From: Cephalotus follicularis
Taxonomy: Eukaryota > Streptophyta > Magnoliopsida > Oxalidales > Cephalotaceae
Assembly: GCA_001972305.1 (NCBI GenBank)
Contig: BDDD01002291.1
Coordinates: forward strand, 116,318 to 180,317
DNA length: 64,000 nucleotides
Reading direction: 5' to 3'
Of the stretch, positions 17,910-64,000 are shown piece by piece. The position numbers were made by a program, and so were the translations under genes. The notes under the pieces are model-generated. The model ran no database searches, was not told where the DNA came from, and saw only the letters and a list, made by a program, of their open reading frames with translations. How positions within the stretch are numbered: position 1 is the first letter of the stretch; each line of letters opens with the position of its first letter.

Positions 17910-19973
17910 TATATATATGCCAATATATATAAGCAACCATGCCAAGTGGTTACAAACAGTCAGATATCAAGAATACTACAAAGGGTACAATCAATCAGTC
18001 CAGTTGTCCGAAAACCAGTAGTGGGTGTCATCTGTCGCTACCTCCTAGCCCCAACGATGCACCACCTAACTACCACCATACACTCCGATAATGATAGAAA
18101 AGGTAAACAGTATTGCTGGCACTTGGCGGACAATTAACAGTCACGGTTTGCATTGCAGATAAATTTGGTGTATAAGCTCTAGCCAACTCCTGACACCTAG
18201 GCTCACCTCTGTAGTCCGTGATACACTCCGATCACAAGACCATTAGAACTATCAATCACAATCAATACAGTACAGTACAATAATTACATATATAATGTAA
18301 TATGAAAGTAGTTCTCTTTTGAGAAAACAGTAAAACAGTTCAGTAGGTTTCCATTTTGAGGAAACAATAACAGTACAGTAGTAGTAACAGTGGTTCTCCG
18401 TAGAGAAAACAATAGTTTAAAACATTTAATTGTGCATATAGCACTTTTTCTAGAAATCTTTGAAATCCCTTTAAAACAGTAGTAATTTTGGAAATTACTT
18501 TGTAGATATAAAATATCTATGCAGTAACAGTATGAATTTCCTTAACAGTACAATCACTTGCAATACAAGAATCAGAATAGTGAACAGTGAATAAACAGTA
18601 TAATTCCTATCAATTTATGCAAATCAAACAGTGTTTGCATAAGTCGTTGGATCCTTATAATCTGATTACTCGTAACAATGATAGATTATTGGAATCATCC
18701 TATATGGCGCTAGTGTAATCCTTCAAGAATTGGACCTAAAACAGTACCAAATTGTCGACTGTCCAGTATTAGGCGATGACAGTTTCCTTTAAAGCGTCGA
18801 CAGTTATACCAAAGCGTCAACGACTATCTTAAAGCGTCGACAGTGTTCTTTACTTAAGCGTCGATAACTTACACGCAAATCATCGACAATTATGCCTTAA
18901 TCGTCGACAGTCCTACACTAAGCGTCGATGGTTTCTAGCGTTTATGCAATTCCAGAAAACAGAGTATGCATATTTCACACTTCAATTCAATTTCACAACA
19001 CATGCAATCATATATAACCCACCATAACACAATATACATGCTATATTTTCAAAATCATGTCATAAACCCTACCTCAATTCGCTATCCCAGAATCAATTGA
19101 TTGATTCTTCTCTTTATAACTCAAACTCCTTTAATTCCAATTTAATCTTCAATTTCCAGAATTTAATCTATGTTTGCATGCTAACAGTAGATATATGCAT
19201 GAGTCAGTATATATATAAACTGTATAACTATAAAACCAGTAACAGGATTCGAACTAGAAGCTTACCAATTCAAATCCAAGCTTCAAGTTCAACTTGAACT
19301 TAATCCTTCAACAAGAAAATTTCCAGCTCATTTCAGATTGTTTCCTCTCCTTTCTAGACGATTTCTAAATCCCAGTTCATCTTTCAACAGTATGATATAA
19401 GTGGTTTCGTTTCAGGAATTCATCTGATTCCCCTAACTCAAATTTCTGGCATTTTCTTTTCTCTCTCTCATTCATTGTTTTCTTCCTGTTTTTGTTCCTT
19501 CTTTTCTGTTTTACAAGTAACAGGTGTTGAAGACACTAATCCTTCTTCAAGCAGCAGCTGGTGACATGTTTTGGTATCCTTGACACGTTTGTAGGACACC
19601 TGCCCAGTTAGAAACGTCAGCCATGCACCACTCTATTCCAATCGTCACTTAACATACACCTGTCCGCGTGCAAAGCGTCATCGGTTGCTCCTTGGCGTCG
19701 ACGGTTTAGCACAAAGCGTCGAGGCTTGTCTCTTTGGCGTTGATGGTTTGGCGCCAAATACGGTTTTTTAAGTTTCTTTCAACTTGACTTCCAATTTCCA
19801 TTCAATTTAGCCCAATTTCTATTCAATTTAGTCCAATTTCCATTCAATTGAGCCCTCGATTTAACTCAATAATCACAATTCACATAATAAATGGACATTT
19901 AATTTCAATTTAATGTATACTTTATTCATCAATCATATAATATACATTAATTAAAATTTTACGGTTATTTCAA
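17910..19973 (-). repeat. Chromovirus-type LTR fragment, minus orientation
   Basis: A non-coding 2.1-kb block. Read on the minus strand it begins near TGTAAACACCAGG, has a purine-rich (pyrimidine-rich on +) stretch near 19440-19500, GTCGACGCC-type words, and an ACTACAGAGGTGAGCCTAGG segment near 18200. These features recall gypsy chromovirus LTRs. Its right edge merges with the truncated SIRE LTR at the shared word CCTGGTGTTTA. No coding sequence is seen. ORFs such as 19097-19297 look like chance. Confidence 0.4.
18721..19760. repeat. Dispersed GCGTCGACAGT-type words in LTR fragment
   Basis: Words close to GCGTCGAC or its complement occur about ten times at 18750-18935 and again four times at 19670-19755, at irregular spacing. 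They are not a regular tandem array. Their role is unknown. Confidence 0.6.
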
Positions 19974-20914
19974 ACCTGGTGTTTACACAAAGATTTTCAG
20001 GAGGTGTTTGTGTTTTTAGTAACTTCTAACAAGGTTGGATATAGCTCAAATAAGGCTCACAATAATATCAAAAAAATAAGGCTTGCAAATAGCTCAAACA
20101 ACTCTTGTAAAGCTTGTTTTTCTTTCACAAGTGTTGATTCTTTTCTTGTTGTTCCTTGTTGTTTTTCTTCACTGATTCAGCCTCTATTTATAGCTTTCTT
20201 GCAGGATATAGCCGTTGGAGATCATCAAAGAGCCGTTGGAATCATATATGGAAAGTTTTCACAATTTCAGCAACTTCAAATCTTGCAGATTTTTGTGTCT
20301 GGTTGTCTTGGGCATCGACGTTTACGCATAGCGTTAGTGTCTATGTCCTTATGCATTAACTCTTTTGGTTCTTCGCGTTGACCCCATTTGCTACAGTCTG
20401 ATTTTTGCATTATTCGCGTTGACGTGTACTCATGGCGTTACGCAAATGTCATTTGTATTGACTCCGTTCTCCTTATGCGTTAACGACAAAAGTCTCTGTA
20501 AGATTTGTGCACCTTTTCACGTTGACGTCTAAGAATGGTGTTGACGTCTTCAGTATAGGTGTTGACTCCTTCCCGTCTTCACGTTAACGTCTAAGTCTCT
20601 GTATGATTTTTGCACCTTTTGGCGTTGACGTCTTTAGTATGGCGTTGACACCAATATGACAATAACCAGCACGTCAACGAGAATCATCAGCACGTTGACG
20701 AAGATCATCTTGTAAAAACCCATACTTCATACTCAAGCCCAGCACGTTGACGCCAATGATCTAGGCGTTGATGCCAATAGTTCTGATATGCTTAATTTTG
20801 CATGTTTTTACTTCAATTTGACTTGTTTATTTTATATAATCATTCCTTCACATTAACAAATAAGTTAGGTGCTTTGTTATCATTAAAATCAATATTGTAA
20901 CATATATCTCAACA
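19974..20914 (-). repeat. SIRE 3' LTR (truncated) with GTTGACG word array
   Basis: About 940 bp matching 24998-25918. It contains roughly 17 words related to GCGTTGACG or CGTCAACG between 20307 and 20790. On the opposite strand a 125-residue frame (20004-20381) recurs at the same place in the other LTR (25027-25404) only because the two LTRs are copies. Confidence 0.85.
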
Positions 20915-22330
20915 ATCCCCCCCTTTTTTATGAGGACAAAACATTCACAATAAAATGTTTTAATCAATACCAATAAAAACAATCAATACCAACAAAAAAC
21001 AAAAAAAACCCCATTAACTTATGCATAAAGGCTTCTTTAACAAGTTATGCTCATTTGATTAATTATTCATCAACCCATTTCAGAAAATAGAATTGATTAG
21101 CTCCTCCTTAACAAGTTATGCATATTATACCAAAAACATTCACTACTTAGGAACAAAATTCCCTTAATCAAACATCTCCCCCAAATAAACATCCCCTTTA
21201 AACATAAATATCATCTCCCCCAACTTATTACTTTGAACTTGTTCATATTCATATAAACTTAAAACATCTCCCCCTTTTTAGAAATCATCAAAAAGGCTAG
21301 CATAAAACATTAATTCTCCCCCTTAATGATGTACAGGGTGTAAAAAATACAAATGCCATAAACAACACATATGCACATGACATTATTCTAATTCATATAA
21401 ACAAAGTTCTCTTCTAAGGTTTGAAAAAGTATTTTCATCAAGAGGTTTTGTGAAAATATCTGCAATTTGCTCTTTTGTGAGAATATATGTGAGAACTACA
21501 TCTTCTTTTTCTATATGATCTCTAATAAAATGATGTCTAATGTCAATGTGTTTAGTTTTAGAGTGATGAACAAGATTGTTTGATAAACAAATGCTACTTT
21601 TGTTATCACATTTTATTGGAATTTTACCAAACTTATATCCATAGTCCACTAGTTGTTGTTTCATCCAAATTGCTTGTGCACAACAACTTCCGACCTCAAT
21701 ATATTCAGCCTCGGTAGTGGAAAGAGCAACAAAGTTTTGCTTTTTACTAAACTATGAAACTAAGAATTGACACGAGTCACTTGTGCTCTTCCTATCAACT
21801 TTATATCTGTCGGAATCGGCATCAGTGTAGGTGTGTAATTCAAAACTAGATTATCTAGGATACCATAAGCCTAGTGAAGGTGTATATGCTAGATATTTGA
21901 AAATACATTTTACTGCAAATAAATGAGATTCTTTAGGATTAGCTTTAAAACGTGCACATAAACACACATCAAATAAGATATCTGGTCTATTAGCAGTAAG
22001 ATATAACAATGAGTCTATCATGCTTCTATATAGCTTTTGATCAATAGATGTACCTTTCTCATCCTTATCAAGCCTTGTTGTAGTGCTCATTGGTGTCTTA
22101 CTTTGCTTTGCATTTTCCAATCCAAAGCGTTTGAGAAGATCCTTCACGTACTTGGATTGGTTGATGAATATTCCATCTTTGAGTTGCTTTATTTGTAGTC
22201 CAAGAAAGAAACTAAGTTCTCACATCATACTCATCTCAAATTCATCTTCATCCGCTTTGGCGTCGAACTTACCAAGGTTGTCATTGTCGTTATTGTGCAC
22301 AAAACACTTGCAGTCGAATGCATGAAAGTA
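20915..22330 (-). pseudogene. SIRE copia RT remnant and RNase H
   Basis: RNase H at 21664-21383 shows CDNKSSICLSNN, HIDIRHHFIRDHIE and the terminal IADIFTKPL. The RT/connection region at 22147-21851 shows YRSMIDSLLYLTANRPDI. Upstream, at about 22290-22150, the sequence passes from an integrase-type CKCFVHNN...LGKFDAKADE directly into the late RT segment ELSFFLGLQIKQ. The polymerase palm with YVDD and everything before it is therefore deleted. A stop lies at the fusion. The internal spacer 20930-21380 carries CTCCCCC tracts typical of this lineage's 3' region. Confidence 0.85.
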
Positions 22331-23445
22331 ACTAATGTTAGGCTTTCTCTGCCTTCATAATTCATATGGAGTCTTTTTTAGAATAGACTTTATTGTTATA
22401 CGATTTAACAAATAGCATGCGGTATTAACGGCCTCGGCCCAAAAATATTTTGACAAAGAATTTTCGTAAAGCATTGTTCGAGCCATTTCTTGTAAAGTTC
22501 TATTCTTTCTCTCTACAACTCCATTTTGTTGAGGAGTTCTAGGAGTAGAAAAGTTATGATCAAAACCATTTTCATTGCAAAAATTTTGAAAATCAATATT
22601 TTCAAATTCTCTACCATAATCACTTCTAATAGATTTAATGGTAGAATTTCTTTCATTTTGAACCTTTTTACAAAAAATTTTGAATTCATTAAAAGCATCA
22701 TTTTTATGGGCTAAAAATAAAGTTCATGTATACCTTGAAAAATCATCTACAATAACTAAGGCATATAGTTTGCTACCAAGACTTCTAGTCCTAGATGGTC
22801 CAAACAAGTCCATATGTAATAGTTCTAATGACATAGTTGTAGAAACAACATTTTTACTTTTAAACAAAGATCGAGTTTGCTTTCTCATTTGACAAGCATC
22901 ACAAATCCTATCTTTTTCAAAAGAAAGTTTGGGATTGCTTTTAACTAATCATATTTTAAAATTTTGGAAATTGTGTTCACGCTAGCATGACCAAATCTTC
23001 TATGCCATAGCCAACTATCATCAATATTTATTGAGACAAGACATTTCACATTTTGAAAATCAAGATCTTTTAAATTTATAACATAAACATTATCTTGTCT
23101 ATAACCAATGAACTTGATAGAGTTATTTAAGATGTTAACTACTATCCAATGTGTCTTTTCAAATGTAACTCTATAACCTTTGTCACACAATTGACTTATG
23201 CTAAGAAGGTTATGTTTGAGTCTCTAGACATACAAGACATTATCAATAGAAGTTGAAGAGTTTTTACCTATGGTGCCAACTCCTCCAATTTTCCCTTTGG
23301 CATTGTCTCCAAATGTCACTTGTCCTCCATCTTTTGGCTTTAGGGTGATGAATTTATTTTTGTCACCCGTCATGTGTTTAGAGCAACCACTATCCATATA
23401 TCATTGATTGGATTTGGTCTTCAATTGCTCCTACAAAGAATCATA
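22331..23445 (-). pseudogene. SIRE copia protease and integrase
   Basis: The protease near 23400-23370 reads MDSGCSKHMTGD with an intact DSG. The GAG-pre-integrase segment at 23190-22945 shows WLWHRRFGHASVNTISK. The integrase core follows with LLHMDLFGP, IRSDYGREFEN and TPQQNGVVERKNRT, so the D,D(35)E residues are present. Stops interrupt the frame near 22720, 22360 and elsewhere. The integrase domain runs into the RT remnant after a deletion. Confidence 0.85.
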
Positions 23446-24533
23446 ATCATGTTGATTTCTTTGGTACCCAAATGGCTTTGGGTCCATCGAGGTTAGTAGA
23501 GATGGTTCCTTTTGGAACCCAAATTCTTTTAATCTTTGTATTGAACCTTTTATGCCAACAATTACTAGATATATGTCCAATTTTATTGCAATAATTACAA
23601 GTAACTACTTTATTAATTTTCTTTCTTTCTATCAATTTTTCAAAGTGTTTTACTTTGTTCATTTCGCCAAAGCCTAAACCTACTCTATCGAAAACACACC
23701 TTTGAACACCTAGTAGTCTATCAAGTTTTTCAATACTACTAGAGAATTTAGAGAAAGTTTTCTTTAGAGCATCTATTTCAATTTTAAGTTTTTCATTCTC
23801 CTCCTTAAAATTTGTTGATAATTCTAAAGACATACTTAAGATATCTATTTCATTTTTTAAGGATTCATTTTCTTTTGATAACAAACTATTGTTTTTCTTG
23901 AAAGCATCAACTTCAAATTTAAAACAATTATTTTCTATTTCAAGTAAACCTATTTTTTCTTCTTTAGATTTATCTTCATTCATCGAAGTAGAAGAAATAG
24001 TCGTTTTTAACTCATTGTTTTCAACTGTCAAGCATTTAGTTTTATTCTTTAAAGAAGAAATAATCGAAGTATATCTTTCTATAATTTCTATAAATTCATC
24101 GTAACTTACCTCATTTTCTTCTTTACTTGCATTCTCTTCATCACTATCACTTTCAGTTTCTTCTCTTGCCATAAGACACAAGCTTGTTGCTTCATCATTG
24201 TTTTCCTCATAAGTATGTTCCAACTTATCCCATATCTCCTCAGCCAGGATACAAGAAAAATACGACCAAATACGTTAGAACTCAAAGCACAAAATATCAG
24301 ATGTTTAGCCTTAGCATTTCTCTTTCTTTCTCATCATATCTAGTTCTTGGTTTGACTATAGATTCTTTGGGCAATTCTGAACCAAAAACAATTATATCCC
24401 AAAGGTCATAATCAAGGGATTGTATGAAGGTGGTCATTTTAACTTTCCATTGATTATAATTATTTCCATCAAAAAATGGTGGCATACTAATAGACTTACT
24501 AACATTATCATTAAAACAAGAAATGATTGTCAT
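23400..24533 (-). pseudogene. SIRE copia gag
   Basis: The N-terminal part (24533-24297) carries FFDGNNYNQWKVKM, the usual copia gag opening. A gap with a frame break lies at 24290-24225. The C-terminal part (24223-23447, 258 codons) is acidic, with long heptad stretches predicting coiled coil, then a CCHC zinc knuckle (CNYCNKIGHISSNC). Gag packages RNA in the virus-like particle (family knowledge). Here it is split and unlikely to be made whole. Confidence 0.8.
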
Positions 24534-24586
24534 GGATCAATCTATCTCAATTAAGATAAATTATAGATATCCGCTCTGATACAAAT

Positions 24587-25918
24587 TGTAGGTCCACTAA
24601 TAGCAACCTAGGGGGGTGAATAGGTTATGCGAAAAATTAGCCCTTTTTCGATTTTAATGATTAAGACAAAACAAGATCGACAATCAAATTACTCTAACAA
24701 TTAAAAACAATCAAATAATATAGAAATAAATTGCAATTACATAAAAGAGTAAGGGAAGAGAGATTGCAAACAGTTTATAGTGGTTCGACCAAATATGCCT
24801 ACGTCCACTCTCCCAAGCAGTTCTTGAGGTTCCACTAGGTTCGTAATCCCCCGATCACAATCCTAACTTTTGAATTTTTACAAGGCAAATACTAACTTGG
24901 ATTTTTACAAGCTAAATCCTAAATTGTAGTTTTTTACAAGACAAATCCTAACATGGATTTTATAACTAAATCCTAACTTGAAATCAGGTATTAACAACCT
25001 GGTGTTTAGACAAAGATTTTCAGTAGGTGTTTTTGTTTTTAGTAACCTCTAACAAGGTTGGATATAGCTCAAATAAGGCTCACAATAATATCAAAACAAT
25101 AAGGCTTGTAAATAGCTCAAACAACTCTTGTAAAGCTTGTTTTTCTTTCACAAATGTTGATTCTTTTCTTGTTGCTCCGTGTTGTTTTTCTTCACTGATT
25201 CAGCCTCTATTTATAGCTTTCTTGCAGGATATAGCCGTTGGAGATTATCAAAGAGCCGTTGGAATCATATATGGAAAGTTTTCACCATTTCAGCAACTTC
25301 AAATATTGCAGATTTTTGTGTCTGGCTGTCTTGGGCGTCGACGTTTACGCATAGCTTTGACGTCTATGTCCTTATATGTTAACTCCTTTGGTTCTTCGCT
25401 TTGACTCCGTTTGCTACTGTCTGATTTTTGCATTATTAGCGTTGACGTGTACTCATGGCGTTGACGTAAATGTCATTTGTATTGACTCCATTCTCCTTAT
25501 GCGTTAACGACAAAAGTATCTGTAAGATTTTTGCACCTTTTCACGTTGATGTCTAAGAATGACGTTAATGTCTTCAGTATAGGTGTTGACTCCTTCCCGC
25601 CTTCACGTTAACATATAAGTCTCTGTATGATTTTTGCACATTTTGGCGTTGACACCGATATGACAATACCCAGCACGTCGACGAGAATCATTAGCATGTT
25701 GACGAAGATCATCTTGCAAAAACCCATACTTCATACTCAAGCCCAGCACATTGATGCCAATGATATAGGCATTGACGCCAATAGTTCTGATATGCTTAAT
25801 TTTGCTTGTTTTTACTTTAATTTGACTTATTTGTTTTATATAATCATTCATTCACATCAACAAACAAGTTAGATGCTTTGTTATCATCAAAATCAAGATT
25901 GTGACATATATCTCAACA
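24587..25918 (-). repeat. SIRE 5' LTR, full length about 1.33 kb
   Basis: The minus strand starts TGTTGAGATATATG at 25918 and ends ACCTACA at 24587, right before a tRNA-Met-type primer-binding site. It has the same GTTGACG word array (25330-25790) as the other LTR, with some words decayed. Confidence 0.8.
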
Positions 25919-26331
25919 GGTGTTTTCAGATCCTACCTGCGCACAAGAAGCAAACAAAACGAAGGTCCAAGAGGTTTTATTCCCAGGGACTTTCCAATGT
26001 TAAAGTCAGACAGTGATGAAGAAGAAACAATAAGGTTCTTTAAGTCTTAGATTGATCGACCTATGTAAAGTGTTTTGTTATGATATTTATAGGATTACCT
26101 GGTTGTAACTGTCTCCCTACGATCTACTTGCGTTATGGAGATGATTATTGTACCCCTAGGAAAACGGCCGAGGATCTCATCCATTTCCTTATTTGGCGCC
26201 GAGACGTTATCTCGTGTGTTACCATTATGGATCTAAACTACTTGAGCACGTGACTGTATCTCTAGAGGACACATGGCTGAATTTCCAGAGGACACTTGGC
26301 ATTTTGTTTGGGTAGAAATTTTCTCATATTA
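25919..26331 (-). repeat. Tat 3' LTR, remainder
   Basis: Aligns with 35830-36248 of the right LTR, from GGTGTTTT to the CATAT end. On the minus strand it keeps a TATA-type CCTATAAATATC near 26090. The two LTRs differ at many positions, so the insertion is not recent. Confidence 0.9.
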
Positions 26332-26858
26332 TATGCCCACTGGTCTTCATTTTCTGGGATTGACAGAGGAGGAAGACCATTTGTCAGGTATTGTTGGTTT
26401 GAGCAGGCATGTGATGCGTAATTAGGACCATTTTAGCTTTTGGGCCTTATAGTCTAGCCCATCTCTGTCATTACTTATGACATGGCAGAGCAAGCGTTAC
26501 TCTCGCTTATGTCTTTTCACTTGCCACACATAATCTCTTCGTACCCCACGCCTGATTTGATTGGCTGATCTTAGCCGTTTGATTCCACAGAGATCTAATG
26601 GTCTGAAAACAATCCAGAGCCCTTTAAAAAGCTTTTTCTTCTTAGATAAGTCTCTTTACCTTTGTCTTCATCTTATTTTCTAAGTTTTTTTTTGCTCTCC
26701 CAAATCTTTCGATCTCCCAAACTTTCTATCAACTCCCTTTCGAATTTTCTCTGCAAAAATCTCAGGTGAGCCATTTTCTTCTATTTGCTTTGCAAAATTA
26801 TTTGGGATTTTCTTGGATTTTTCTTATCTCCCCCACTCTCCTCTTCTTAAATCTCCAT

Positions 26859-27740
26859 ATGGCTAGGGTTAAGCAAACTGCTAGGCAAACTACTACCCCT
26901 ACAGAGGTACGCCATATGATAGGATAGGTGACTGTCGCTGAGCGTCCTCTTGGTGCGGACGAGGACATGGAGGCCGCCACTGCGGGCGCTCCTAATGTCA
27001 CATCTCCCGAGACTGGGACCCAAGATTTTAGGACCCACTTCGGCAGGAGTGTGCTCGGCCGTGAAAAATTAAAAGAGTTGGCCAAAAAGTACTGCTTCTC
27101 GAGGAGCTTGGAGTTTTCCCTTCCTCGAGATCCCAAGGAGACAATAGAGAGCAAACCTGGTTTCTTTGTGGTGTTTGAAGATGCTTTGACGCATGGTCTA
27201 AGGCTCTCGATTCCACCCTTTGCCATTGCAATCTTAAGGCACTTCCAAATTCATCCTTCACTGCTCCAACCGCAATCCTGGGCCTTCATCATTGGTTTCT
27301 TGGTAAAGTGTTTGAAAACGGGGGTGACACCAATGGTGAGGCTATTCAAGGAGTTTCACTCCTTCAATGCATCGCCTGACAAGCTCGGTTACTATTTCAA
27401 GTAGCGCGTTAGTCTGACCAAGAAGCTATTGGTGGATCAGACGAAGTCCGTCAAAGGCTGGAGGGGAAGGTACTTCCTTGTTAGGAATCTCCTCGGCTTC
27501 ACTCCCTGCCAATGGTGCGATTCGTTGGATACCCAAAGTCTCAATCAGAGGATGATTTTGACTGTAATAGAGAAGGCAGACCTGGTGAAGCTCTCTGCAC
27601 TGGAGCCAGAAGAGGTGAACTCTACCATCTTCGAGGATTGTTTGCGCCGTGTTGGGCTGAGCATGTCCCATGGTCGGCGATATTCTTTGGATAAGGAAAA
27701 GGATATCCCAGTAGGGATAGAGAGAGGGGGTTCAAAATAG
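26859..27740 (+). pseudogene. Tat antisense accessory ORF, first part (Transposase_28-like)
   Basis: Runs opposite to gag-pol, between pol and the 3' LTR. The first ATG (26859) opens MARVKQTARQ, very like the histone H3 tail. A TAG at 26925 and another at 27402 interrupt one otherwise continuous frame. Residues encoded at 27150-27330 (PGFFVVFEDALTHGLRL...LQPQSWAFIIGF) match the pattern of the Pfam family called putative gypsy type transposon (Transposase_28). It continues to WRGRYFLVRN. Antisense ORFs of this kind are known in Tat-lineage elements and their function is unknown. A TATA-less, pyrimidine-rich leader at 26630-26780 precedes it. Confidence 0.7.
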
Positions 27741-29257
27741 CAGAGAAGAACCCGTGGCCTCGCCCCTTAACGAGGGGGAAAGTTGTATTAAGCCTTCCTC
27801 ACCTCCTCTGCTTCTAATACCTTCATCTCTTTTGTTCAATTACCATTTTCGTCATTCATGCTTTAGACTAAGTGTTTCTTGTGGTCCTCTGCAACAATGG
27901 CTTCTCGGCGATCTACGGCTGATGTCTTGAGAGCTGCTAGAGAGAAAGCAAAGGTTGCTGCCGAGGAGGAGAGGCAAAGAGCTCTGAAGAAAGTTGTTGT
28001 GGTGACAGAGAAGAGAGCAGTGAAGGAAGTTGCTGCTGCTGAAGCTACCAGGGCAAGGTCTGCCCATGGAAAACGTGTTACGGACAAGCAGCACCCTCCT
28101 CGGTCCAAAAAACAAAAGAGGAGAAGAGACGGAGATGGCCCTTCTCTTGATCAAGCTGTTGTGCCCCCCTAGGTGGGTTCTCATGATCCCGTTCGTCTTG
28201 GTGATCCTCGGGATGGTGAGCAGTTTGAGGAAGAGCTCGAGGGGCTGAGCTTATCTGGCGCGGACCTGAATACTCCAGGGGTGCCCTTTGAACATAGTAG
28301 GATGTGCTTCCTCCCTGCCGAGATGAATGTAAGAAAGGGTTGGACCATTAGCCAACTCTGGAACCACTGCCTTCAGAGCAACATCAGAGTATATAACTTT
28401 CTCTCTTTTTGTTTCTAGATATGCTCTCTACTTTTCCTCTGACTTTGGTCTATCTTTGCCAGGCTCTGAATGATGCCCATCTAACGATGGAGAACTCTAG
28501 GGCTGACCATCAACTCATTAACGAGCTTCGGGACCAGGTCGCAGAGTTCAAGCAAGCGGCTAATTCGGCCCAAGCTCAGCTGGAGGATGTTCTCAGGGCC
28601 CAAGAGTCTGTGCTGGAAGAGAAAAGAAAAGGCAGGCTCTCGAAGCTCTAGCGACGGTGAAGAGGGAGAAGGATATAGATGTTGATCATAATATAAAGCT
28701 TCAGGATATGCTGAAGACTATGGAAGAAAGGCATTCTAGGATCCAAGAAATGGAGGCTGCTCGGACCCAAGCAGCAGCGGATAGATCCCTAATGGATTTT
28801 AAGGCTTCATATGATTTCCAAGATGCTCTGGCTAAGGTCGTGGATGACTTTAGGGCTTCTCAAGCTTTTGAAGAGGAAGTCCTTATAGAGTCCGCGATAC
28901 TCTATCGCAGGGGCTTCTATACTTGTCGCAACTGGGTTGCTCGCCATCCAGAGGCTCCTATGGATTCTATCATCTGTTGTCCATCAGCGAAATGAGTTTG
29001 ACTTCTTTCCCGAGGGGATTGACGCAGATGAAGAGAAAGCTCTTCATGGCTTTGAGGAAAGAGAATGTCTCGCTCATGAATCTGAAGAGTCACAAAGGGC
29101 AGAGCACTCAGGTACGATTGTCCCTTTCACTGGTCCTGCTGCAGATCCTGGCATTGCTCCTTTACCCGAGGACTCCCAAGTGCTTGTTTCTCCTCCTGTA
29201 CAAAATATTCCCCAGAGGATAACAATGTTGAAACTTTTTGTTTTTGCACTATTGTAA
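27741..29257 (+). pseudogene. Tat antisense accessory ORF, second part with intron and coiled coil
   Basis: Same frame as the first part. A basic, Ala/Lys/Glu-rich stretch begins at ATG 27897 with a lysine/arginine cluster (KKQKRRR, about 28110-28127) that could be a nuclear localisation signal. A TAG at 28170 interrupts it. A likely intron with GT at 28389 and AG ending 28462 joins SNIR to ALNDAHLTM in phase. The downstream segment is a strong coiled coil (28460-28870), broken by a frameshift near 28630 and another near 28950. An acidic tail follows to 29257. No function is known. Confidence 0.6.
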
Positions 29258-29339: not shown

Positions 29340-29960
29340 ATTTGTAGACTTTTCTTATATTAGTCTGATATTTTCCAGACTAGGTTGCCTAAACTTTTTA
29401 GCCCACGTAGGGCACTTTGTGTCAAAGTGCTTAGCCGAAGAGATTTGGTATTTGCGAGTTCTTAAGTGTTCGCAGACCAAGTTTTAGGTATGGACTGGAA
29501 AGTTCTTATGGATTTGTAGACTAGGATCTCGTCTGGTTTGATATTTTTCAGACTAGGTAGTCTGAGCTTTCTAGTCCCTTTAGGGACACTTGTATCAAAG
29601 CACTCAGTCCAACAACCTTGATCGTTGTGAGTTCCTATGTGTTCACCTCTCAGGTTACGATGCAGGTCTGGTCTGAGAAGTTCTTATGAATTTACCGATC
29701 AGCGTTTGCTCCTTTGGGAGTCTTTTGTTTGCTCCCTTAGGAGTCTTTTAGTTGTTCCCTTAGGAATCTTTTACGATTGCTCCTTTAGGAGTCTTTTAGA
29801 ATTGCTCCCTTAGGAGTCTTTTTGTTTGATTTCTTCCTTAGGAGTCATCTTTAATAAGCTTGTATTAAAGCTCTAGGTACTCCTTGGACGGGAGTCTTTG
29901 GTGCTCCTTTGACAGGAGTCTTTGGTGCTCCTCTGACAGGAGTCTTCTCTGACCTTAGCC
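29340..29960 (+). repeat. Short degenerate repeats in the Tat 3' spacer
   Basis: A word of the form GCTCCCTTAGGAGTCTTTT recurs about seven times at 29700-29850, and GTGCTCCTTTGACAGGAGTC about three times at 29880-29945. Each word contains a small dyad (CTCCYTWAGGAG). A pair of about 150-bp blocks (from 29340 and from 29520) share TAGTCCC..TAGGGACACTT..TCAAAGC patterns. Confidence 0.65.
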
Positions 29961-30263: not shown

Positions 30264-31408
30264 TCAGAGCACTTTCTTCACCTTGTAGGGTCCCTCCCAA
30301 TTAGGAGCTAATTTTTCTCTAGTGCCAGTTGGATCAGCGATTGTCGCATTACGGATGACCAAATATCCCTCCCTTAGTGGTCTGGGGTTCACCCTTTTGT
30401 TGTAATAACGACTCACCCTCTGTTGGTAAGCTGCTACTCTAATGACTGCTTTATCTCTAAGCTCTTCCACTAAATCGAGGAGATTCCTCAAACCTTCTTC
30501 ATTATTAACTTTATTGAAATGCACCACTCTGGGAGAATGCACCCCAATTTCCACCTGTATCATGGCTTCTAATCCAAAACAAAGGCTAAATGGGGACTTA
30601 CCCGTTGTGGTCCGAGGAGTAGTTCTATAAGCCCAAAATACACTGAGGAGCTCCTCTGTCCATCTCCCTTTGATAGCTTCGAGGCATTTCTTCAACCCCA
30701 AGATGATCTCTATGTTGATAACCTCTGCCCGACCATTGCTCTGAGGGTAGGCTACGGAGGCAAGTCTGTGCTCAATTCTCCACTCCTTGAAAAAGTTTCA
30801 AAAAGCTTCACAATCGAATTACTTTCCATTGTTAGAGACGATTACTCTGGGGACCCTAAATCTACAAATGATTGACTTCCAGACAAAGCTCTCCATCTTG
30901 CTCTCCGTTATTATGGCCATGGGCTCTACTTCCACCTATTTGGTGAAGTATTCCACGCCATGATTAGAAACTTTCTCTGCCCTGTTGCCACAGATAGTGG
31001 TCAGACAAAGTCCATTCCCCATTGTGCAAAGGGCCAAGGGGTAGTGATAGGTGTCAAAGGCTCTGATGGTCTTCTGCTTATGTTGGCATTCCTCTAACAC
31101 TTATCACACTTCCTTACAAAGTCGATGGCATCTTGGTGCATGGTAGACCAGAAATAGCCCTGTCTTAACAATTTGTTGGACAAGGTTCTGCCCCCTGTGT
31201 GACTTCCACATACTCCTTCATGGACCTCCCTTAGAGCGTAGTCGTCTTCTGAAGGAGCTAGACATCTCAACAAAGGGAAAGAGAATGACCTTTTGTAGCG
31301 AATCCCTCCTTTGAATTGGTAGCGGTTGGATCTGTATACCAACCTTCTTGCCTCTTCTGGATCCTCTGGAAAAATAGCATCCCTTAGCCAACTAATGAAT
31401 GGAGTCAT
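30264..31408 (-). pseudogene. Tat gypsy integrase
   Basis: The H2C2 zinc-binding region is at 31408-31094 (HEGVCGSHTGGRTL...CDKC). The catalytic core region at about 31090-30710 is broken by several stops. The C-terminal part is at 30701-30264 (WAYRTTPRTTTGKSPFSL, then YYNKRVNPR and a GPYKV chromodomain-free end). Integrase would insert cDNA into the genome. This copy cannot produce a whole core. Confidence 0.85.
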
Positions 31409-31423
31409 CCAGTTTGGCTCTTG

Positions 31424-31810
31424 TTAGACATTGATGTCCATCACATCAACCTCGGAGAAGGTGGTCCTGTCTAGGTAGTTTACTAGCACGGCTTGATTTC
31501 TTTCAAATTCCCCAGCTGTAGATAGTTTCGACAACTGGTCTGCTCTGACGTTCTCTGTTCTGGGAACTTTCAACACTCGGAAGACTTGGAAAGTGGTCCT
31601 CAAGTTTTGAACATGGGCCAAGTATTTAACCATTGTGTCTTCTCTGGCTTCGTACTCTCCGTTTACAAGACCAACCACCGGCTGAGAATCACTAGAGGCT
31701 TTTAATTTTTGAACCTCCAAGTGCTTTGCTATTGTCAGTCCGGTAATCAGAGCTTCCCATTCGGCCTCATTGTTTGTTGCTTTGAACCCAAATCTCAGAG
31801 AATACTCCAA
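31424..31810 (-). pseudogene. Tat gypsy RNase H
   Basis: A 129-codon open stretch with NNEAEWEALITGL, ASSDSQPVVGLVNGEYEAR and VPRTENVRADQLSKL, the standard order for the second RNase H of Tat elements. It is separated from RT by a stop near 31811. It would degrade RNA in RNA-DNA hybrids. Confidence 0.85.
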
Positions 31811-31813
31811 GGT

Positions 31814-33076
31814 CTACCCATCTGGGCTAGTTAGCACCAATCCTGCTCCTCCATCAATGAAAAGCTTCCATAACCCCTTCTCATTTTCAGAGGAGTCCTT
31901 TGTCATACACCCTATAGGTGTATTATCTCCTACAAAATCAACCAAGACCTGTGACTTTATTGCTGGTCTGGCTTCATATTTCACATCGTATTCACCCAAT
32001 TCGACAGACCATTTGACTAGTCCGCCTGACATGTCTGGCTTTGCTAGAACTTGTCTAAATGGCTTGTCGGTTAAAACTTTGATAGTATGGACTTGAAAAT
32101 ACAGCCTTAGCTTTCTCGCCGCAAGGATCAAAGCATAAGCATACTTCTCTACCTCTGGATATCTCCCCTTAGCATCGTTCCAGGCCTTGCTCACATAATT
32201 TACTGGCCTCTGAATTTTATCTTCCTCTATTACAAGCACTGCACTCACTGCTCCTTGCGTCGCAGCTAAATACAAATACAAATCTTCCCCGTCCATTGAT
32301 TTTGATATCAAAGGAGGGGAAGCTAAGTATTCCTTTAATTTTTCAAAGGCTGCTTGACATTCTTCAGTCCAGAGAAACCCCTTGAGGTCCCTTAATACTT
32401 TAAAGAAGGAAAGACACTTCTCTGCTAATTTGGAGACAAATCTGTTCAGGGCTGCAATTTTGCCATTCAGCCTCTGTACATCCCTAATAGATTGAGGAGG
32501 CTTCATTCTCTGAATAGCCGAGATCTTCTCTGGGTTGGTCTCTATTTCTCTGCTGGAGACCATAAACCCAAGAAACTTACCAGAGGTGACCCCAAAAGTG
32601 CACTTAGAAGGGTTGAGGCACATTTTGTATCTTCTCAATACCTCAAAGGTCTCCTCCAAGTCCTTGATATGAGGACTCCTTGCCGGTGTCTTGACGAGCA
32701 TATTGTCAATGTAAGCCTCCATATTCCTCCCGATTTGAGGTTCAAAATTTTTGTTGACCAACCGTTGGTAGGTCACTCCAGCATTTTTTAGTCCGAAGGG
32801 CATGACTTTATAGCAATACATACATTTATCAGTGACGAATGTTGTCTTGTTCTCATATGGTTTGTACATAAGGATTTGACTGTAGCCAGAGTAAGCATCC
32901 ACCAAGTGATCAATATTCGGGAGAGGGAAGTGGTCTTCTGGACAAGCTTTTTTGAGGTCTGTGAAGTCTATGCACATCCTCCACTTGCCATTCGCCTTCT
33001 TGACTAGTACTGGGTTCGCCAGCCAGTCAGAGTATTTCACTTCCCTTATAAACCCTGCTTGTAATAGCTTATTCAC
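31814..33076 (-). pseudogene. Tat gypsy reverse transcriptase
   Basis: 420 codons without a stop. The order is LLQAGFIREVKYSDWLANPV, KANGKWRMCIDFTDLKKACP, MPFGLKNAGVTYQRLVN, then AYIDNMLVK at the catalytic site, where the family has YVDD, so one metal-binding Asp is Asn. A short segment normally between HLVDA and YSGY is missing. Thumb and connection follow (GFMVSSREIETNPEKI), then the first RNase H segment. The long open frame suggests moderate age, but the polymerase is probably dead. Confidence 0.9.
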
Positions 33077-33094
33077 TTCATCTGCTATTACCTG

Positions 33095-34033
33095 TTACCT
33101 CTCAGGAGCGAATTTTCTCTTCTTTTGCCTGGTCGGAGGCTGCGTTGGATCCACACTTAGCCTGTGCACCATCACCTCTGGGCTGATCCCTGGGACCTCC
33201 TCTACTGACCAGGCAAATACATCTCTATTATTTTTAAGGAACGTTATTAGTTCCTCTTTCTCCACCTCTCCAAGTTGGGAGCCAACTTGGAAAACTTTCT
33301 CTGCACTGCCTTCCTCCAAAGGCACCTGCACGACATCCTCCAAGAGTTGTGGAGGCTCAGGCTCCACTTCTCCTCTGAGCTCCACATTAGCTATGGGAAG
33401 GGCTTTTCCCTTTCCCTTGTCCTTTATGGCAGTCTGGTAGCACTGCCTGACAACTTGTTGGTCTCCTCGGACTTCCCCCACACCAAACCTGGTCGGGAAT
33501 TTTACCAATAAGTGCCTTGTCAACACTATTGCCTCTATCAAGTTCAATCCTGGTCGTCCAATTATAGCATTGTACAGGCTTTGTGTATCAACCACCAGGA
33601 AAGTCATCTGTACTTGGGACTGGCGTGAGGTTGTGCCTACAACAACCGACAAATCGATGGATCCCATAGGATGAACTATCTCTCCCGCAAAACCTACCAG
33701 ATGAGTCTTGACTGGCCTTAGCTGGTCGACCAGGATCCTCAACTGATCAAAAGCATGTTTGTAAAGGATATCCGTCAAGCTCCCACTGTCAATGAGGATT
33801 CTCTTCATAGTGAATAGTTCCACTTGAAGAGTCACTACCACTGGATCATCATGATGGAGAAGTACTCCCTCATAGTCCACCTCTGAGAAGGATATTACCT
33901 CCTCTTCTCCACCAGTCTTCAATCTTTTGCTATGCGTGTATTGTTTCCGGGCAAAGGTTTGTCTAGCATAGGCTTTTCGAGCTCTACTATGGTCGCCACC
34001 AGATGCGATCGCTCCAGAGATGGTATGGATCAC
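33095..34033 (-). pseudogene. Tat gypsy aspartic protease region
   Basis: 313 codons open. The retropepsin is at about residues 70-170, with ILIDSGSLTDILY (catalytic DSG intact) and the flap-distal ILE-type motif NAIIGRPGLN. The downstream linker carries FLKNNRDVFAWSVEEVPGI, the usual lead-in to RT. It is separated from gag and RT by single stops. Confidence 0.85.
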
Positions 34034-34093
34034 ACCCCTAGGATGCTGCTCCTCTTCCTACTGCAGAGCTTCTTCTCTGTGCTCCCTTATTTG

Positions 34094-35707
34094 CTAAGGA
34101 TCATCTCTATCAACATACTTTCTTAGATGACCTTTTTGAATCAGGTCCTCAATCTGATTCTTCAAGTGCCTGCACTCTTCCGTATCATGCCCATGATCAC
34201 AGTGGTACTGGCAGTATTTGCTTGAGTCCCTCTTCTCCGTCGAGGATCTCAATGGGGATGGTAATTGGATTGGGACCATGTCCTTCTCCATTGCCAGTAT
34301 CCTGGCCCGCGTCTCCAAGAGAGGGGTAAAGTTGTTGTAACTGGGGATTGGTGTTCCCCTCTTTGGTGACTCCTCTCTCTTGGAGAGCTTGTGCCTAAGG
34401 TCATCATTGGTCAGCTTTGACCTCTTATTACTCTTATGCTTCTTCCCTGGAGCACTTCGTGAGTGCTCCTTTTTCTCCACCTGTTGCTCCGACCAGGAAG
34501 TCTTCTGCTTCCTAGCTGCCATAGCCTCCTCTGCATTGACATACTTCTCTGCTCTTCTCAAGAGGTCTGCCATGTCCAGAGCAGACTTCTTCATGAGGGA
34601 AAAGGTAAATGGTGAGTTATCTTTCAACCCATTATTCAGAGCTTCCAGAGCAAAAGATGGCTCCAAATCCTTAACCATCAGAGACTTCTTGTTGAATCTA
34701 GTGAGGTAGTCTCTAAGAGACTCATTCTTCCCCTGCACCACGTTGATTAGATGGTTCGAATTCTTTCTCTGCGTGGTACTGTTGAGGAATTTGGTGATGA
34801 ACATCTCCGTAAATCGCTCGAAGTTTGCCACTGAATTTTGAAGCAGCGTGGAGTACCACTCCTCGGCCGCGCCCGTCAGAGTTGCCGGGAATCCTCAGGA
34901 AAGTACAGAATCTGAAGCTTGATGCACTAGCATGATTTGGGTGTAGTAGTGCACATGCTGGATTGGGTCAGTGGACTCGTCGTACTCCTTGAGATTCGGG
35001 AACTGGAATCCTCTTGGGATACGCTCCCTCATTATCTCGGGTGTGAAGGGAGTACAGTTTATACTTCGTACCTCTGATAGGTACCCCTTCAAGTGCTCGG
35101 ATCCTCTGAGCTTCCTCTCCATCTCAGCAAACCTTATGTTCATGGTCTGCTCAATGTCCTCTATGTTCCTAGTCTTGCTAGAAACATGTGACTACCCTAC
35201 AAATCTAACCAAGTAGTCCGACCTACTCCTTGGTCGGGTCTCAGTCATGCGAGAAGCAGAGGATCATGCTTGGATCTCTTCGTCCTCCATTGAGTAATCC
35301 TTTTCCATAGGATCTTGCTCTGGAAGGTCTTGTTAGGGATTATAGCTATGATCCCTCGCACTCGAAGACTCCGCCCTCAGAGATATATCAATTTTTGACC
35401 GCCTTGGAAGACGCATGGCCCTCCTCGATGGGTTTCGCCTGGCCCCTTGAGGCTGTTGAACTTCTGTGGCTGGCCTGCTCGGTCCAGCCTGATCTTGAAG
35501 GGCTGGTCGGCTTGGCCCAGCCTGAATTTGTATGGCCAAGTTATTCGCTAGCAAGGTTGTGAGACGCCCCATTTTTTAGAGCAGCTGATTGAATTGCTCG
35601 CCAGTGATGGGAGCTTGCTTGGGAGCCTGACTGGTAGCAGGAGCTTGATTGTTAGTGGGTGCTTAGCTGCCAGTGGCTACAGAGCTGGTGTTTCTTCTCG
35701 GAGGCAT
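34094..35707 (-). pseudogene. Tat gypsy gag
   Basis: Starts at ATG 35707 (MPPRRNTSS), with stops near 35660 and 35575. A proline-rich linker is at 35572-35333. The retrotrans_gag core is split over 35143-34895 (RGFQFPNLKEYDESTDPIQH) and 34831-34094 (FITKFLNSTTQRKNSNHLI, LRDYLTRFNKKSL). A CX3CX4HX4C-like zinc motif (CQYHCDHGHDTEEC) is near the C-terminus. It would be the nucleocapsid precursor. The breaks make it non-functional as a single protein. Confidence 0.85.
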
Positions 35708-35749: not shown

Positions 35750-36248
35750 TGTTGATGTCGAAATCAACTATACAACAATCCCCTGCGTGTAGAGGTTTGA
35801 TTTGTTGAAGGAAATGCCGTGAATGCTCCGAGAATGGTGTTTTAAGATCCTACCTGCACACAAGAAGCAAACGAAACAAAGGTCCATGAGGTTTTACTCC
35901 CGGGGACTCTCCGATGCTAAAGTCAGATAGTGGCAAAGAAGAAACAATAAGGTTCTTTAAGTCTTATATTGATCGACCTGTGTAAAGTGTTTTGTTGTGG
36001 TATTTATAGGATCACCTAGTTGTAACTGTCTCCCCACGACCTGCTTGCGTTACAGAGATGATTATTGTACCCCTAGGAAAACGGCCGATGATCTCGTTCA
36101 TTTCCTTATTTGGCGCCGAGACGTTATCTCGTGCGTTACCATTATGGATTTGAACTGCTTGAGCACGTGGCTGTATCTCCATAGGACACATGACTGAATT
36201 TCCAGAGGACATGTGGCATTTTATTTGGGTAGAAATTTTCCCATATCA
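35750..36248 (-). repeat. Tat 5' LTR (499 bp)
   Basis: Starts TGATATGGGAAAATTTC and ends CGACATCAACA on the minus strand. CCTATAAATACC (about 36011-36000) is a TATA box in the minus orientation, consistent with transcription into gag. It is flanked by TSD TCACC at 36249-36253. Confidence 0.9.
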
Positions 36249-38212
36249 TCACCGAAAAAAGGTTTTTAGATCTATTTCACCCTTTTTTAGAACTAACGAT
36301 CTTAGGATGGTCTAAATGCTTTCAAATTGAAATATGTTGTTGTTATACTTTTCTAAAAGCTTCCCCTAGAGTTTTGTTTCAATCGGATTTGAAAAATGTT
36401 GTGAAAATCAAAAGTTATGTTGTTTTTGGGTTTACTAATAAAAGACTGATTTCTGCTGAATTCGAGTTGTCAATCGACTGGAGCCTTATCCCATTCGACT
36501 GGAAGAATTAAAATTATGCCAAATCCTACTGTATTGACCATAGCTGACAGGAGGTTCCTCCAATCGACTGGAATGCCCCTCTGCACTCAAAGTACTGTTT
36601 TCACCTAAAAAGTCATGTTTTGCTCGTTTTCTCAAACGGTTTTCAACGGGAGTCTTTCAATGCTCAAATAACATCTTTTTCAACATATTTTACCATATTT
36701 CAATATGTTTAACAAAAAATTTGACCAATTGATTAAAATGTTTTGAAATGTAATGTTTTACGAAGGTTTTCTCTGATGTAGCTCGTTTGAGACTTTTTAC
36801 TTGTTTTCCTCAAACGATCATTTTCGTGAGCCTTCTAAAGTGTGAATCTAACCTCTATGTAAACATATTTTACATTGAGTGAATGATTTTTTACAATTTT
36901 TTCTACAATGGCTTAGTAAAGGATAAGGGAGAGTTCATAAAAGTGTTCACCGTAGAGTGAACTGTAACTTCTAATCAAGTATGCTAAGCGTCGATCTACA
37001 GTCCATTGATCTCTCTGATAGAGTTACTCATAGTACGTGATTGATCGAGCTCCCTGAATAACCCTAGAGTTGTGTGTCACATTTAGGGGGCTAGATATTT
37101 TGCCTTTGAGCTGTGAGCCACCTTGAAAAGAGGGACTTGAGACTCGCATAAAGCTACTGTCGGTGAACTGATAGGTGACTAGATGTATAACCCTAGAGCT
37201 GTGTGTCACATTCAGGAGGTTAGATGTCCTTATCCTAGAGCTGTGTGCCACCTTTAAAGGACTTGAGACTTATGATGAGATTTGGTATGCTATGTATGTC
37301 ATGATATGACTTGTATGAATAAATCTGTAACTAGTTGAGACCTACCAATCTCAATGGTAGAAAACTAGTTCTAGTTGAACCCTATTGATTTCAATGGTAG
37401 ACAACTAGATGTCCTAAAGTTTGAGCTATCTGCCACCTTGAAAAAATTTAGACTTACAGATATTTGTATGTTTAGATTAACTGTTATATACGCTAGTATG
37501 GAACGATGTTATATAACTGATTAATTGTCTGATAGATGTATGGATATGAGTGTATGCTTAGGTTAACGATTTGTATATATACCGGTATTGGACGATTATA
37601 TATGATTTGGTTAATCACAACTATTATCATGCATTACTACATGACATGTGTATGAGTGTAATATTTGTTCAAGCATATTGCCATGACACTCATATATACT
37701 TGCGATACATGTTCATTATAAGCATGACGTTATTTCATGCTTGACCGTATGGCTAATCTAACATTCGAAATGAGGCACCTATAATGTGTTCAGGTTCATA
37801 TGAGGTAGGAGCAGGTAGCAATGGTTAAGGACATGACTATCAATGAAAGTAAAGTTGCACGGAGCATAGGTTTAAGATATTCTGTTTAATGTGATAGTAT
37901 TCTGTAAGGATTTGTAATGAGTAAAGTTAATACATAGACTAGTTATGAGATGTATGAAATGACCAAAGAGTAATGATTTGTATAAGTGTATTGAGTCTGT
38001 ATGTATATGTCAAGAATCTGTAGAGATATTTATAAGTAATTGAAAGGATATTTAAGAGTATTCGAATAGATATACACGCATATTCATAAAGTTTAAAGTT
38101 TTAATTGTTTTTTGCCGTATACAATAGATTTAACTAGTACCCGACTTATAGATTAAGAGACTGAATGGGTTTGTAGTGATGTCACGGACCTCAACCAGAT
38201 TCGAGTGTTATA

Positions 38213-56541: not shown

Positions 56542-57419
56542 TATTGATTCAAGAATTAACCACACAACAGTCCCTTACGTAGAAGAGTTTGATTTGTAGA
56601 GGGAAACGAACTGAATGCTTCGAGAACGGTATCGGATTGAGTGTTTTACGATACTCTTTGCACACAAATAGCAAATTAGTCGAAGATCCAGGTTTTACTC
56701 CTGGGAACTCTCCGATACTTAAGTCAGACAGTGTACAAAGAAGAAAGTACTAAGGATCTTTCAAGGTTCAAAATGACCGACCTGTGTAACGTATTTGATC
56801 GCGGTATTTATAGTGAAGATCGGATGTAACTGCATTACTTGACTTGCGGAGATGATTATTGTACCCCTAGGAAACGACCGATGATCTCGCACCATTTCCT
56901 TATTTGGCACGCTGACGTTATTGAGCGTTATCTTTTCAGATTTTAAATGTCCCAACCACGTGTCTGTAGCTGTAATGCCCCCGATCCGAGTTCACTCTAG
57001 GCTCAAAGTGAGTCTTAAGGATCCGATGCGTTACGTGGGGTATGACCATTAACCATTTTAACCATATAACTTATTGTTAACATTTATTCTTAAATGCTCA
57101 TAATCTCAATATATCTCATCACATTCTATACTAATTCTTAATATTACATTCCATAATAATAATTGTCAACATCTTATGTTTACACAGGATTTGTCATAAA
57201 ACATTCCACGGCGAAAAATATTAACTTATTACATCATCACTAGTTTATACAAAACATTATTGTATAACATAATTTCTTTCCAAAACATCTTCTGTGAGCT
57301 CCAAGGCTCAACTTTCCACGTTCAATCGTTTCCTGAAAATTTATTTGAAAACCAAAAACATTGAAGGGAATGAGCATAAATAGCCCAGTAAGGTTTTCAA
57401 AACTAACGTACATCATAAC

Positions 57420-60344: not shown

Positions 60345-60417
60345 GAGTGAACTTGGGATGCAAGCTTGTCTTTCTCATGATGATTACCATGGTAGCAGCC
60401 CATGTGCTAAATTTTCC

Positions 60418-63400: not shown

Positions 63401-64000
63401 AAAAACCAGAGGGAACCCTCAAAAACCCTTGAAACCCAAAAACCTGATGAACCCTCAAAAACCCCTGGAAACCCCAAAACCCGAAGGAACCCTCAAAAAC
63501 CCTTCAAACCCAAAAACCTGAGGGAACCTTCAAAATCCCCTAGAAATCCAAAAACCTAAGGGATCCCTCAAAAAACCATAAAAACCCAAAAACCCGAGTG
63601 AACCCTCAAAAACCCTAGAAACCCAAAAACCTGAGGGAACCCTCGAAAACCCCTGAAAACCCAAAAACCTAAAGGAACCCTCAAAAACCCCTAGGAACCC
63701 CAAAACCCGAGGGAACCCTCAAAAACCCCGAGGGAACCGTCAAAAACCCCTGGAAACCCAAAAACCCGAGGAACCCTCAAAAACCCATGGAAACCCAAAA
63801 ACCTGAAGGAACCCTAAAAAATCCCTGGAAATCTAAAAACCTAAGGGAACCCGCAAAAAACCCTAAAAACCCAAAATCCTGAGGGAACCCTCAAAAACCC
63901 CTAACAACCCAAAAACCCGAGGGAACCCTCAAAACCCCTGGAAACCCAAAAACCTGAGGGAAAGCTCAAAAATCCTAAAAACCCAAAAACCCAAGGGAGC
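60418..64000. repeat. Telomere-like minisatellite, about 38-bp unit, runs off window
   Basis: More than 3.5 kb of a degenerate unit: AAACCCAAAAACCCGAGG, then GAACCCTCAAAAACCCCTGG, in total about 38 bp, so roughly 90 copies. The unit is built of A3-5/C3-4 blocks like CCCTAAA telomere repeats. Each copy carries the dyad GAGGGAACCCTC. Variants occur: a short unit CCCCGAGGGAACCCTCAAAAA at 62330, 62970 and 63728, and a longer block shared at 62808 and 63961. The minus strand is G-rich, with four G3 runs per unit. Satellite or subtelomeric DNA is likely. Confidence 0.95.
61691..61750 (+). repeat. Interstitial telomeric block, (CCCTAAA)n
   Basis: Eight near-perfect heptamers CCCTAAA, with one CCCCAAA and one CCCTAAAA, embedded in the 38-bp array. 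This is the plant (Arabidopsis-type) telomere repeat in the C-rich orientation. Confidence 0.9.

Follow-up and report, generated by a model that had tools for sequence, protein, structure and literature searches.

The antisense TRP28 gene and its element

We analyzed 64,000 nucleotides of Cephalotus follicularis (contig BDDD01002291.1 of assembly GCA_001972305.1, positions 116,318 to 180,317; this whole stretch is called the window below), in which an antisense open reading frame (ORF) carrying the TRP28 domain begins with a near copy of the tail of histone H3. This ORF belongs to a decayed Retand-type element (Tat, Ty3/gypsy), whose gag-pol genes lie on the minus strand, so that the TRP28 ORF on the plus strand is antisense to them. 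The frame starts with MARVKQTARQT (26859-26891, plus strand), which agrees with H3 (MARTKQTARK) at M, A1, R2, K4, Q5, T6, A7 and R8, i.e. at eight of ten residues. An earlier note, made from the letters of this DNA, had placed MARVKQTARQ at the first ATG of an antisense ORF of a Tat element, with eight of ten H3 residues including Lys4 and Arg8, and a stop 22 codons after the start. Translation bears this out: the first in-frame stop is a premature TAG at codon 23 (26925-26927, plus strand), and the remainder of the first antisense frame (26928-27404, plus strand) matches TRP28 (Transposase_28, PF04195; E 5.7e-12) with 46.1 bits, above the Pfam gathering cut-off of 26.2.

The antisense gene extends on the plus strand through a continuation of the frame with no Pfam match (27405-27737), a basic piece whose KKQKRRR cluster was picked out by eye as a putative nuclear localisation signal (27867-28169), and a charged piece that the earlier note had labelled a putative coiled coil (28564-28992). 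Upstream of it, the alignment of copies points to the TATA-like CCCTTTAAAAAGC (26620-26632, plus strand) as a possible core promoter and to a putative intron in the 5' untranslated region (CTCAG/GTGAG ... CCAT; 26766-26858, plus strand), the acceptor AG of which is lost in the window copy. Among 41 copies picked by their N-terminus (described below), 36 have AG immediately 5' of the ATG, and in 34 the 150 bases upstream contain AGGTGA or AGGTAA, which resemble a splice donor. The TRP28 gene thus appears to have such an intron, and its leader may be spliced. We infer that the ATG of MARVKQT is the actual start codon of the TRP28 protein. Pfam scans of the antisense frames found no histone match and no histone fold after the tail, scans of viral-contig and genome-contig collections found no relatives of 26928-27404, and AlphaFold was uninformative on this single frame (pLDDT 39.5).

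The remainder of the element reads, on the minus strand, as gag (34094-34894; Retrotrans_gag, E 7.6e-16), an open frame without Pfam match that is the protease region by position (33095-34057), reverse transcriptase and RNase H (31814-33094; RVT_1, RT_RNaseH_2 and RT_RNaseH), an additional RNase H (31427-31813; RVT_3, E 2.3e-14) and an integrase region of two open frames (30264-31423), with Integrase_H2C2 in 31094-31423 and no Pfam match in 30264-30797. Short tandem repeats (29704-29946, strand not assigned) lie between pol and the antisense gene. The 5' long terminal repeat (LTR; 35762-36249, outer limits approximate) and the 3' LTR (25919-26332), which is truncated where a copia element abuts, are both on the minus strand and are 90% identical over 414 bp. 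An LTR of ~488 bp and an internal region of ~9.4 kb fall inside the ranges given for Retand (315-1,194 bp and 7.4-12.9 kb, respectively; PMC11963269). The additional RNase H between the first RNase H and the integrase (a feature common to Ogre too), the long region with tandem repeats between pol and the 3' LTR, and the antisense TRP28 frame within that region are likewise traits of the Retand lineage, and the anatomy as a whole matches Retand as described in the relevant passages of PMC11963269 and PMC6317226.

The Ty1/copia element that abuts the truncated 3' LTR occupies 19973-25918, and its own LTRs (19973-20914 and 24996-25918) are 91% identical; the missing end of the Retand LTR was not seen beyond its far side. 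Elsewhere in the window, a second Tat-type LTR fragment (56554-56971) shares ~73% identity with the main element's 5' LTR; none of the adjacent ORFs was recognised as a TRP28 frame. At 60416-64000 there is a tandem array of AAACCC-rich units of ~37-38 bp, with telomere-like AAACCCT repeats at 61688-61750.

Conservation of the start among genomic copies

No other ATG of the window, on either strand, is followed by more than four of the nine H3 residues, and one reaches four. Under a second-order Markov model of the window, at least seven of nine matches arose in 2 of 11,684,900 stop-free ATG 10-mers (~1.7e-7). Because this figure alone would not settle a case that came from a wide scan, relatives were needed, and all were searched for in the host genome (1.577 Gb). 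A query with the 22-residue start yielded 704 candidates, of which 150 were scored and 71 matched with E <= 0.001. The window copy and the 40 best of the 70 non-window matches make up the 41 N-terminus-picked copies. K4 and R8 are present in all 41, R2 and Q5 in 40 each, and Q stands at H3 position 9 in 40; codons 2-10 show 22 nonsynonymous and 62 synonymous changes (omega-like value 0.12). Since this set is biased by its own selection, our claim is not based on its stronger figures.

A further 85 loci were therefore chosen by their TRP28 domain and not by their start. The TRP28 query from the window copy (150 scored of 11,490 candidates) provided every fourth row, i.e. 37 loci, plus 20 rows of mostly low TRP28 identity, and a second TRP28 query, from the distant element L109 (contig C1961; 150 scored of 11,214 candidates), provided 12 rows among the lowest 28 and 16 of 21 seventh rows. 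Two of the 85, L098 and L104 (the latter being the place of L062), were also among the N-terminal matches. The exact start MARTKQT occurs in 22 of the 85 (3/37, 6/20, 8/12 and 5/16 in the respective subsamples) and MARTKQTAR in four (L077, L107, L118 and L120), while L120 begins with MARTKQTARK, identical to H3 at all ten positions. Likeness to H3 is greater in other subfamilies than in the window copy. Among the seventh-row copies, 13 of 16 have a recognisable start, with K4 and T6 in all 13 and T3 in 12. No start was recognised within the fetched stretch in six of the 85 copies (L076, L088, L114, L144, L145 and L146), all of which lie in damaged or rearranged stretches; stops, gaps and frameshifts are found in other copies as well. 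Intact relatives with unrelated N-termini, which the earlier note had named as evidence against its proposal, were not seen among these loci.

To follow substitution in the start, a tree was built from codons 36 onward only, for 68 sequences (54 and 12 TRP28-picked loci, the window copy and L109). L088 and L114, which have no ORF start, and L117, with the same N-terminus as L116, were left out beforehand, L076 was kept in spite of its lost first codons, and the 16 seventh-row loci are in no tree. The sequences split into a window-like clade of 55 and a second clade of 13 (support 0.998 and 1.0), whose TRP28 domains are 68% identical to each other on average, and the H3-like start occurs in both. 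Fitch counts on internal branches gave 4 nonsynonymous and 28 synonymous changes in codons 2-7, and 9 and 33 in codons 2-9, compared with 100 and 66 in the linker (codons 11-35) and 70 and 219 in the TRP28 core (codons 96-155). Codons 2-7 thus differ from the linker with p = 4.6e-7, and R2, K4, Q5 and T6 had no nonsynonymous change at all. On terminal branches, the nonsynonymous and synonymous counts were 57/33 in codons 2-7 and 290/138 in the linker (p = 0.46), a neutral-like pattern, as copies that decay once inserted should show. With each of three trees, codons 2-7 were the lowest of the 59 six-codon blocks within codons 2-65 (p from 4.6e-7 to 1.9e-5).

Maximum-likelihood estimates of omega over the whole tree were 0.37 for codons 2-9, 0.60 for codons 11-35, 0.60 for codons 36-65 and 0.26 for codons 96-155. 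Column counts in a 36-sequence TRP28-picked sample gave omega-like values of 0.33 for codons 2-10 (codon 10 being excluded by an alignment gap), ~1.1 for codons 11-14 and for codons 15-24, 0.90 for codons 25-34, 0.58 for codons 35-50 and 0.17-0.40 for codons 81-170; as the sample was ranked by TRP28 likeness, low omega in TRP28 is favoured. The branch figures are parsimony counts on trees with weak support at many nodes, and recombination among elements is possible. A second, weaker constrained island was seen at codons 30-35, which ranked third in each of the three lists of lowest blocks within codons 2-65.

A chance resemblance in a single decayed copy had to be considered, as the earlier note had said, and the window copy is indeed broken, with its stop at codon 23 and its putative acceptor lost. 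However, copies chosen by TRP28 carry the same start, in which nonsynonymous change is suppressed; the TRP28-based sampling and the branch-wise counts refute a chance origin, and we give it next to no credence. The segment also lies at or near the first bases 3' of the putative splice acceptor, as would suit a signal in DNA or RNA, such as a splice enhancer or promoter-proximal element, of which the peptide is a by-product. Against this, the codons of R2, K4, T6 and A7 have undergone synonymous change with the amino acids mostly preserved, and a DNA-level signal was rejected on the variation of these third positions, which leaves this explanation very improbable. Because TRP28-picked copies carry the motif and nonsynonymous change in it is suppressed on internal branches, the data argue that the H3-like start is a selected protein feature, a short linear motif that copies H3 residues 1-8. 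The earlier note had asked whether A-R-[TV]-K-Q-T-A-R is conserved beyond neutral drift; inside the host genome this holds on internal branches, under all three trees, for A-R-[TV]-K-Q-T, whereas A7 and R8 vary in the second clade.

Residue history and the possible capture of an H3 start

Threonine at position 3, as in H3, is present in all 13 second-clade sequences, in the deepest window-like branches (L108, L118, L124, L099, L101 and L113) and in a younger window-like group (L072, L077, L120 and others). We infer that T3 is the older state and that V3 of the window copy is derived; because T3 recurs in the younger group, reversal or recombination at this position must be reckoned with. At the position of H3 K9, Q is found in 40 of the 55 window-like sequences and in 9 of the 13 of the second clade, and K in 2 of the 55.

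In the host genome there are five full-length H3 genes without introns, and four H3.3-like genes that are split. Their starts share MARTKQTAR with Retand; the Retand protein differs in having no histone match and another R2 codon, and its DNA likeness to the H3 genes is weak and confined to the start. AG stands immediately 5' of the ATG in one H3.3-like gene and likewise in the window-like Retand clade; the second clade has its likely acceptor AG ~9 bases upstream of the ATG. The coding start of an H3 gene might have been taken into an early Retand element, its first 8-9 residues being kept while the remainder drifted. The T3 of the entire second clade fits such a capture, and as the linker evolves freely, likeness beyond residue 9 would be expected to disappear. 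In blastn searches against 10 H3/CENH3 loci of the host genome, short DNA queries gave weak matches, the best between the L152 start and the H3 gene of L012 (87% over 31 bp, E 5e-6) and another between the L120 start and the H3 gene of L031 (82% over 34 bp, E 6e-5). Furthermore, the 11 bases before the ATG in the second clade share at least 8 positions with the L012 H3 gene (G000:C2833) in 16 of 24 copies, and 10 positions in two; as a control, at least 8 of 11 were shared by 4 of 2,416 window ATGs and 9 by none.

However, the upstream likeness was found after the fact and with one of eight H3 genes, and the null from window ATGs is too lenient because true start contexts are A-rich. The match in coding DNA is largely forced by the residues in common, none of the 103 blastn rows from 1.2-kb queries with the 41 N-terminus-picked copies overlaps the start, and the R2 codon is AGG or AGA in 40 of these 41 copies but CGN in 8/8 H3 starts. 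The upstream likeness to L012 is a possible trace of capture, and the DNA-level evidence mildly favours it; overall we find capture plausible, although our confidence in it stays somewhat below even. Capture concerns origin only and can be compatible with mimicry.

A strong blastn match of 40 of the 41 queries at contig G000:C1961 proved to be due to an adjoining Retand element and not to the H3.3-like gene there. This contig (L029/L030 and L109/L110) carries the H3.3-like gene twice in tandem, at a spacing of 8.9 kb. Beside each copy is a second-clade Retand, the LTR-like part of which begins ~650 bp 5' of the H3 ATG and the TRP28 ORF of which runs in the opposite direction. With ~11,000 TRP28 candidates in 1.58 Gb, a Retand element beside an H3 gene is, by a rough estimate, unsurprising. 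At L026 (G000:C10), a gene that is CENH3-like by eye begins MARTKARARYTKQ and has MARTK in common with H3 and Retand.

A candidate H3-tail mimic and its proposed readers

Identity at the very N-terminus of the protein (8/10 in the window copy and 10/10 in L120) and maintenance of the likeness by selection (4/28 nonsynonymous to synonymous changes on internal branches, compared with 100/66 in the linker) are both features of a tail mimic. We therefore propose, with confidence just short of even, that the start mimics the H3 tail on an accessory protein, probably nuclear and DNA-binding, and engages proteins that read the K4 side of H3. Binding by PHD fingers requires a free alanine at the N-terminus, and an initiator methionine that precedes alanine is cleaved off. 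Removal of the methionine would leave a free A-R-T/V-K-Q-T tail, which the protein could display on the chromatin of the element, where the tail may occupy or recruit factors that read the K4 side. A reader of that side fits because K9 of H3, which bears the silencing mark, is mostly Q here. The likeliest partners in plants would be ZMP and SHH1, which read unmethylated K4 and guide Pol IV and RNA-directed DNA methylation, or else H3K4 demethylases and other PHD proteins; in engaging them, the element might blunt its own silencing. Each joining step of this mechanism is conjectural.

A comparable arrangement exists in SNAG-domain transcription factors, in which an N-terminal H3-tail-like peptide on a DNA-binding protein recruits LSD1. 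SNAG peptides share little sequence with H3, whereas the Retand tail is nearly identical to it. Among the Retand clusters described as recent, 97% of those analysed have antisense TRP28 ORFs, and TRP28 is described there as predicted to bind DNA and the role of its antisense protein as unknown (PMC11963269). In maize, the Grande antisense protein localises to the nucleus and is encoded by a gene with a promoter of its own (PMC7264820). In the relevant passages of these two papers no H3-like N-terminus is mentioned. Our literature search, with subscription papers mostly outside it, found no description of an H3-like start on a Retand or TRP28 protein in the titles or opening abstract lines of the papers listed, and by term search the word histone is absent from a 2026 review of gene capture by plant transposable elements (PMC13317346).

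Previous studies, as far as their relevant passages go, describe related motifs and readers. The N-terminal VRTK of PAF15 (PCLAF) is bound by the UHRF1 PHD finger as the A-R-T-K of H3 is (PMC7060239), and the VRT of DPPA3, which is internal, binds the same finger in competition with H3 (PMC11187062). Both are vertebrate cellular proteins with likeness in VRTK or VRT only, whereas the likeness of Retand extends through T6 and often R8, and its partner is a candidate. In plants, SHH1 and ZMP read unmethylated K4 (K4me0) and guide Pol IV (PMC7617993). VANC, a protein encoded by VANDAL transposable elements, causes loss of DNA methylation in such elements, and its targets often form tandem repeats (PMC5735166); tandem repeats, and an accessory protein predicted to bind DNA, are found in Retand too. 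VANDALs, however, are DNA transposons, the abstract of that paper names no H3-like tail, and we liken the two by description only.

Selection on the motif is shown by the counts, whereas its partners are candidates. The motif could thus have been selected for a purpose internal to the element or otherwise unrelated to histones, e.g. binding of nucleic acid, Gag or a processing enzyme, in which case the H3 likeness would be convergent and no histone reader would be involved. That the segment is basic and that T3 and A7 vary are in keeping with this explanation. However, a need for basic charge alone would not explain why Q5 and T6 are unchanged on internal branches, at least seven of nine H3 matches arise by chance as rarely as computed above, and the inferred root state is closer to H3 at position 3 than is the window copy. 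We consider such a purpose a serious but rather doubtful alternative.

Several observations weigh against mimicry of H3, or against selection for it. T3 is replaced by V in 35 of 55 window-like sequences, and in the second clade A7 is S in 11 of 13 and R8 is retained in only 5 of 13. R stands for Q at H3 position 5 in L147, L149 and L151 (MARTKRT, MARIKRT and MAMTKRT), which are perhaps a subfamily departing from H3. Over the whole ORF, on a 56-sequence tree, the block of codons 2-9 ranks 30th of 148, and the 15 lowest blocks shown on that tree all lie within codons 107-147. A phmmer search of the 22-residue start against a PDB set gave no match, H3 included, which is not surprising for a query of this length, and all relatives come from one genome. 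Finally, the PHD finger of VIM1 is said not to recognise the H3K4 peptide (in a title cited in PMC7617993), so that the direct parallel with UHRF1 may fail in plants.

In its boldest form, the proposed mimicry would make the Retand product an anti-silencing protein: a near-perfect free H3 tail without the K9 silencing site, tethered through TRP28, would capture ZMP/SHH1-type readers of unmethylated H3K4 and uncouple the element from RNA-directed DNA methylation. It may have originated in the capture of the start of an H3 gene, and would have been kept since before the split of the clades whose TRP28 domains are 68% identical. We regard this full scenario as unlikely. Altogether, the interpretation of the earlier note is partly supported.

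To our knowledge, histone mimicry has so far been described mainly for cellular and viral proteins. The selected H3-like tail makes a concrete and cheap test of the role of the antisense TRP28 protein possible, namely whether its peptide binds H3 readers or enzymes. If it does, histone mimicry would be at work in a common class of plant retrotransposon, and the reading of H3K4me0 would be a point of conflict between transposon and host.
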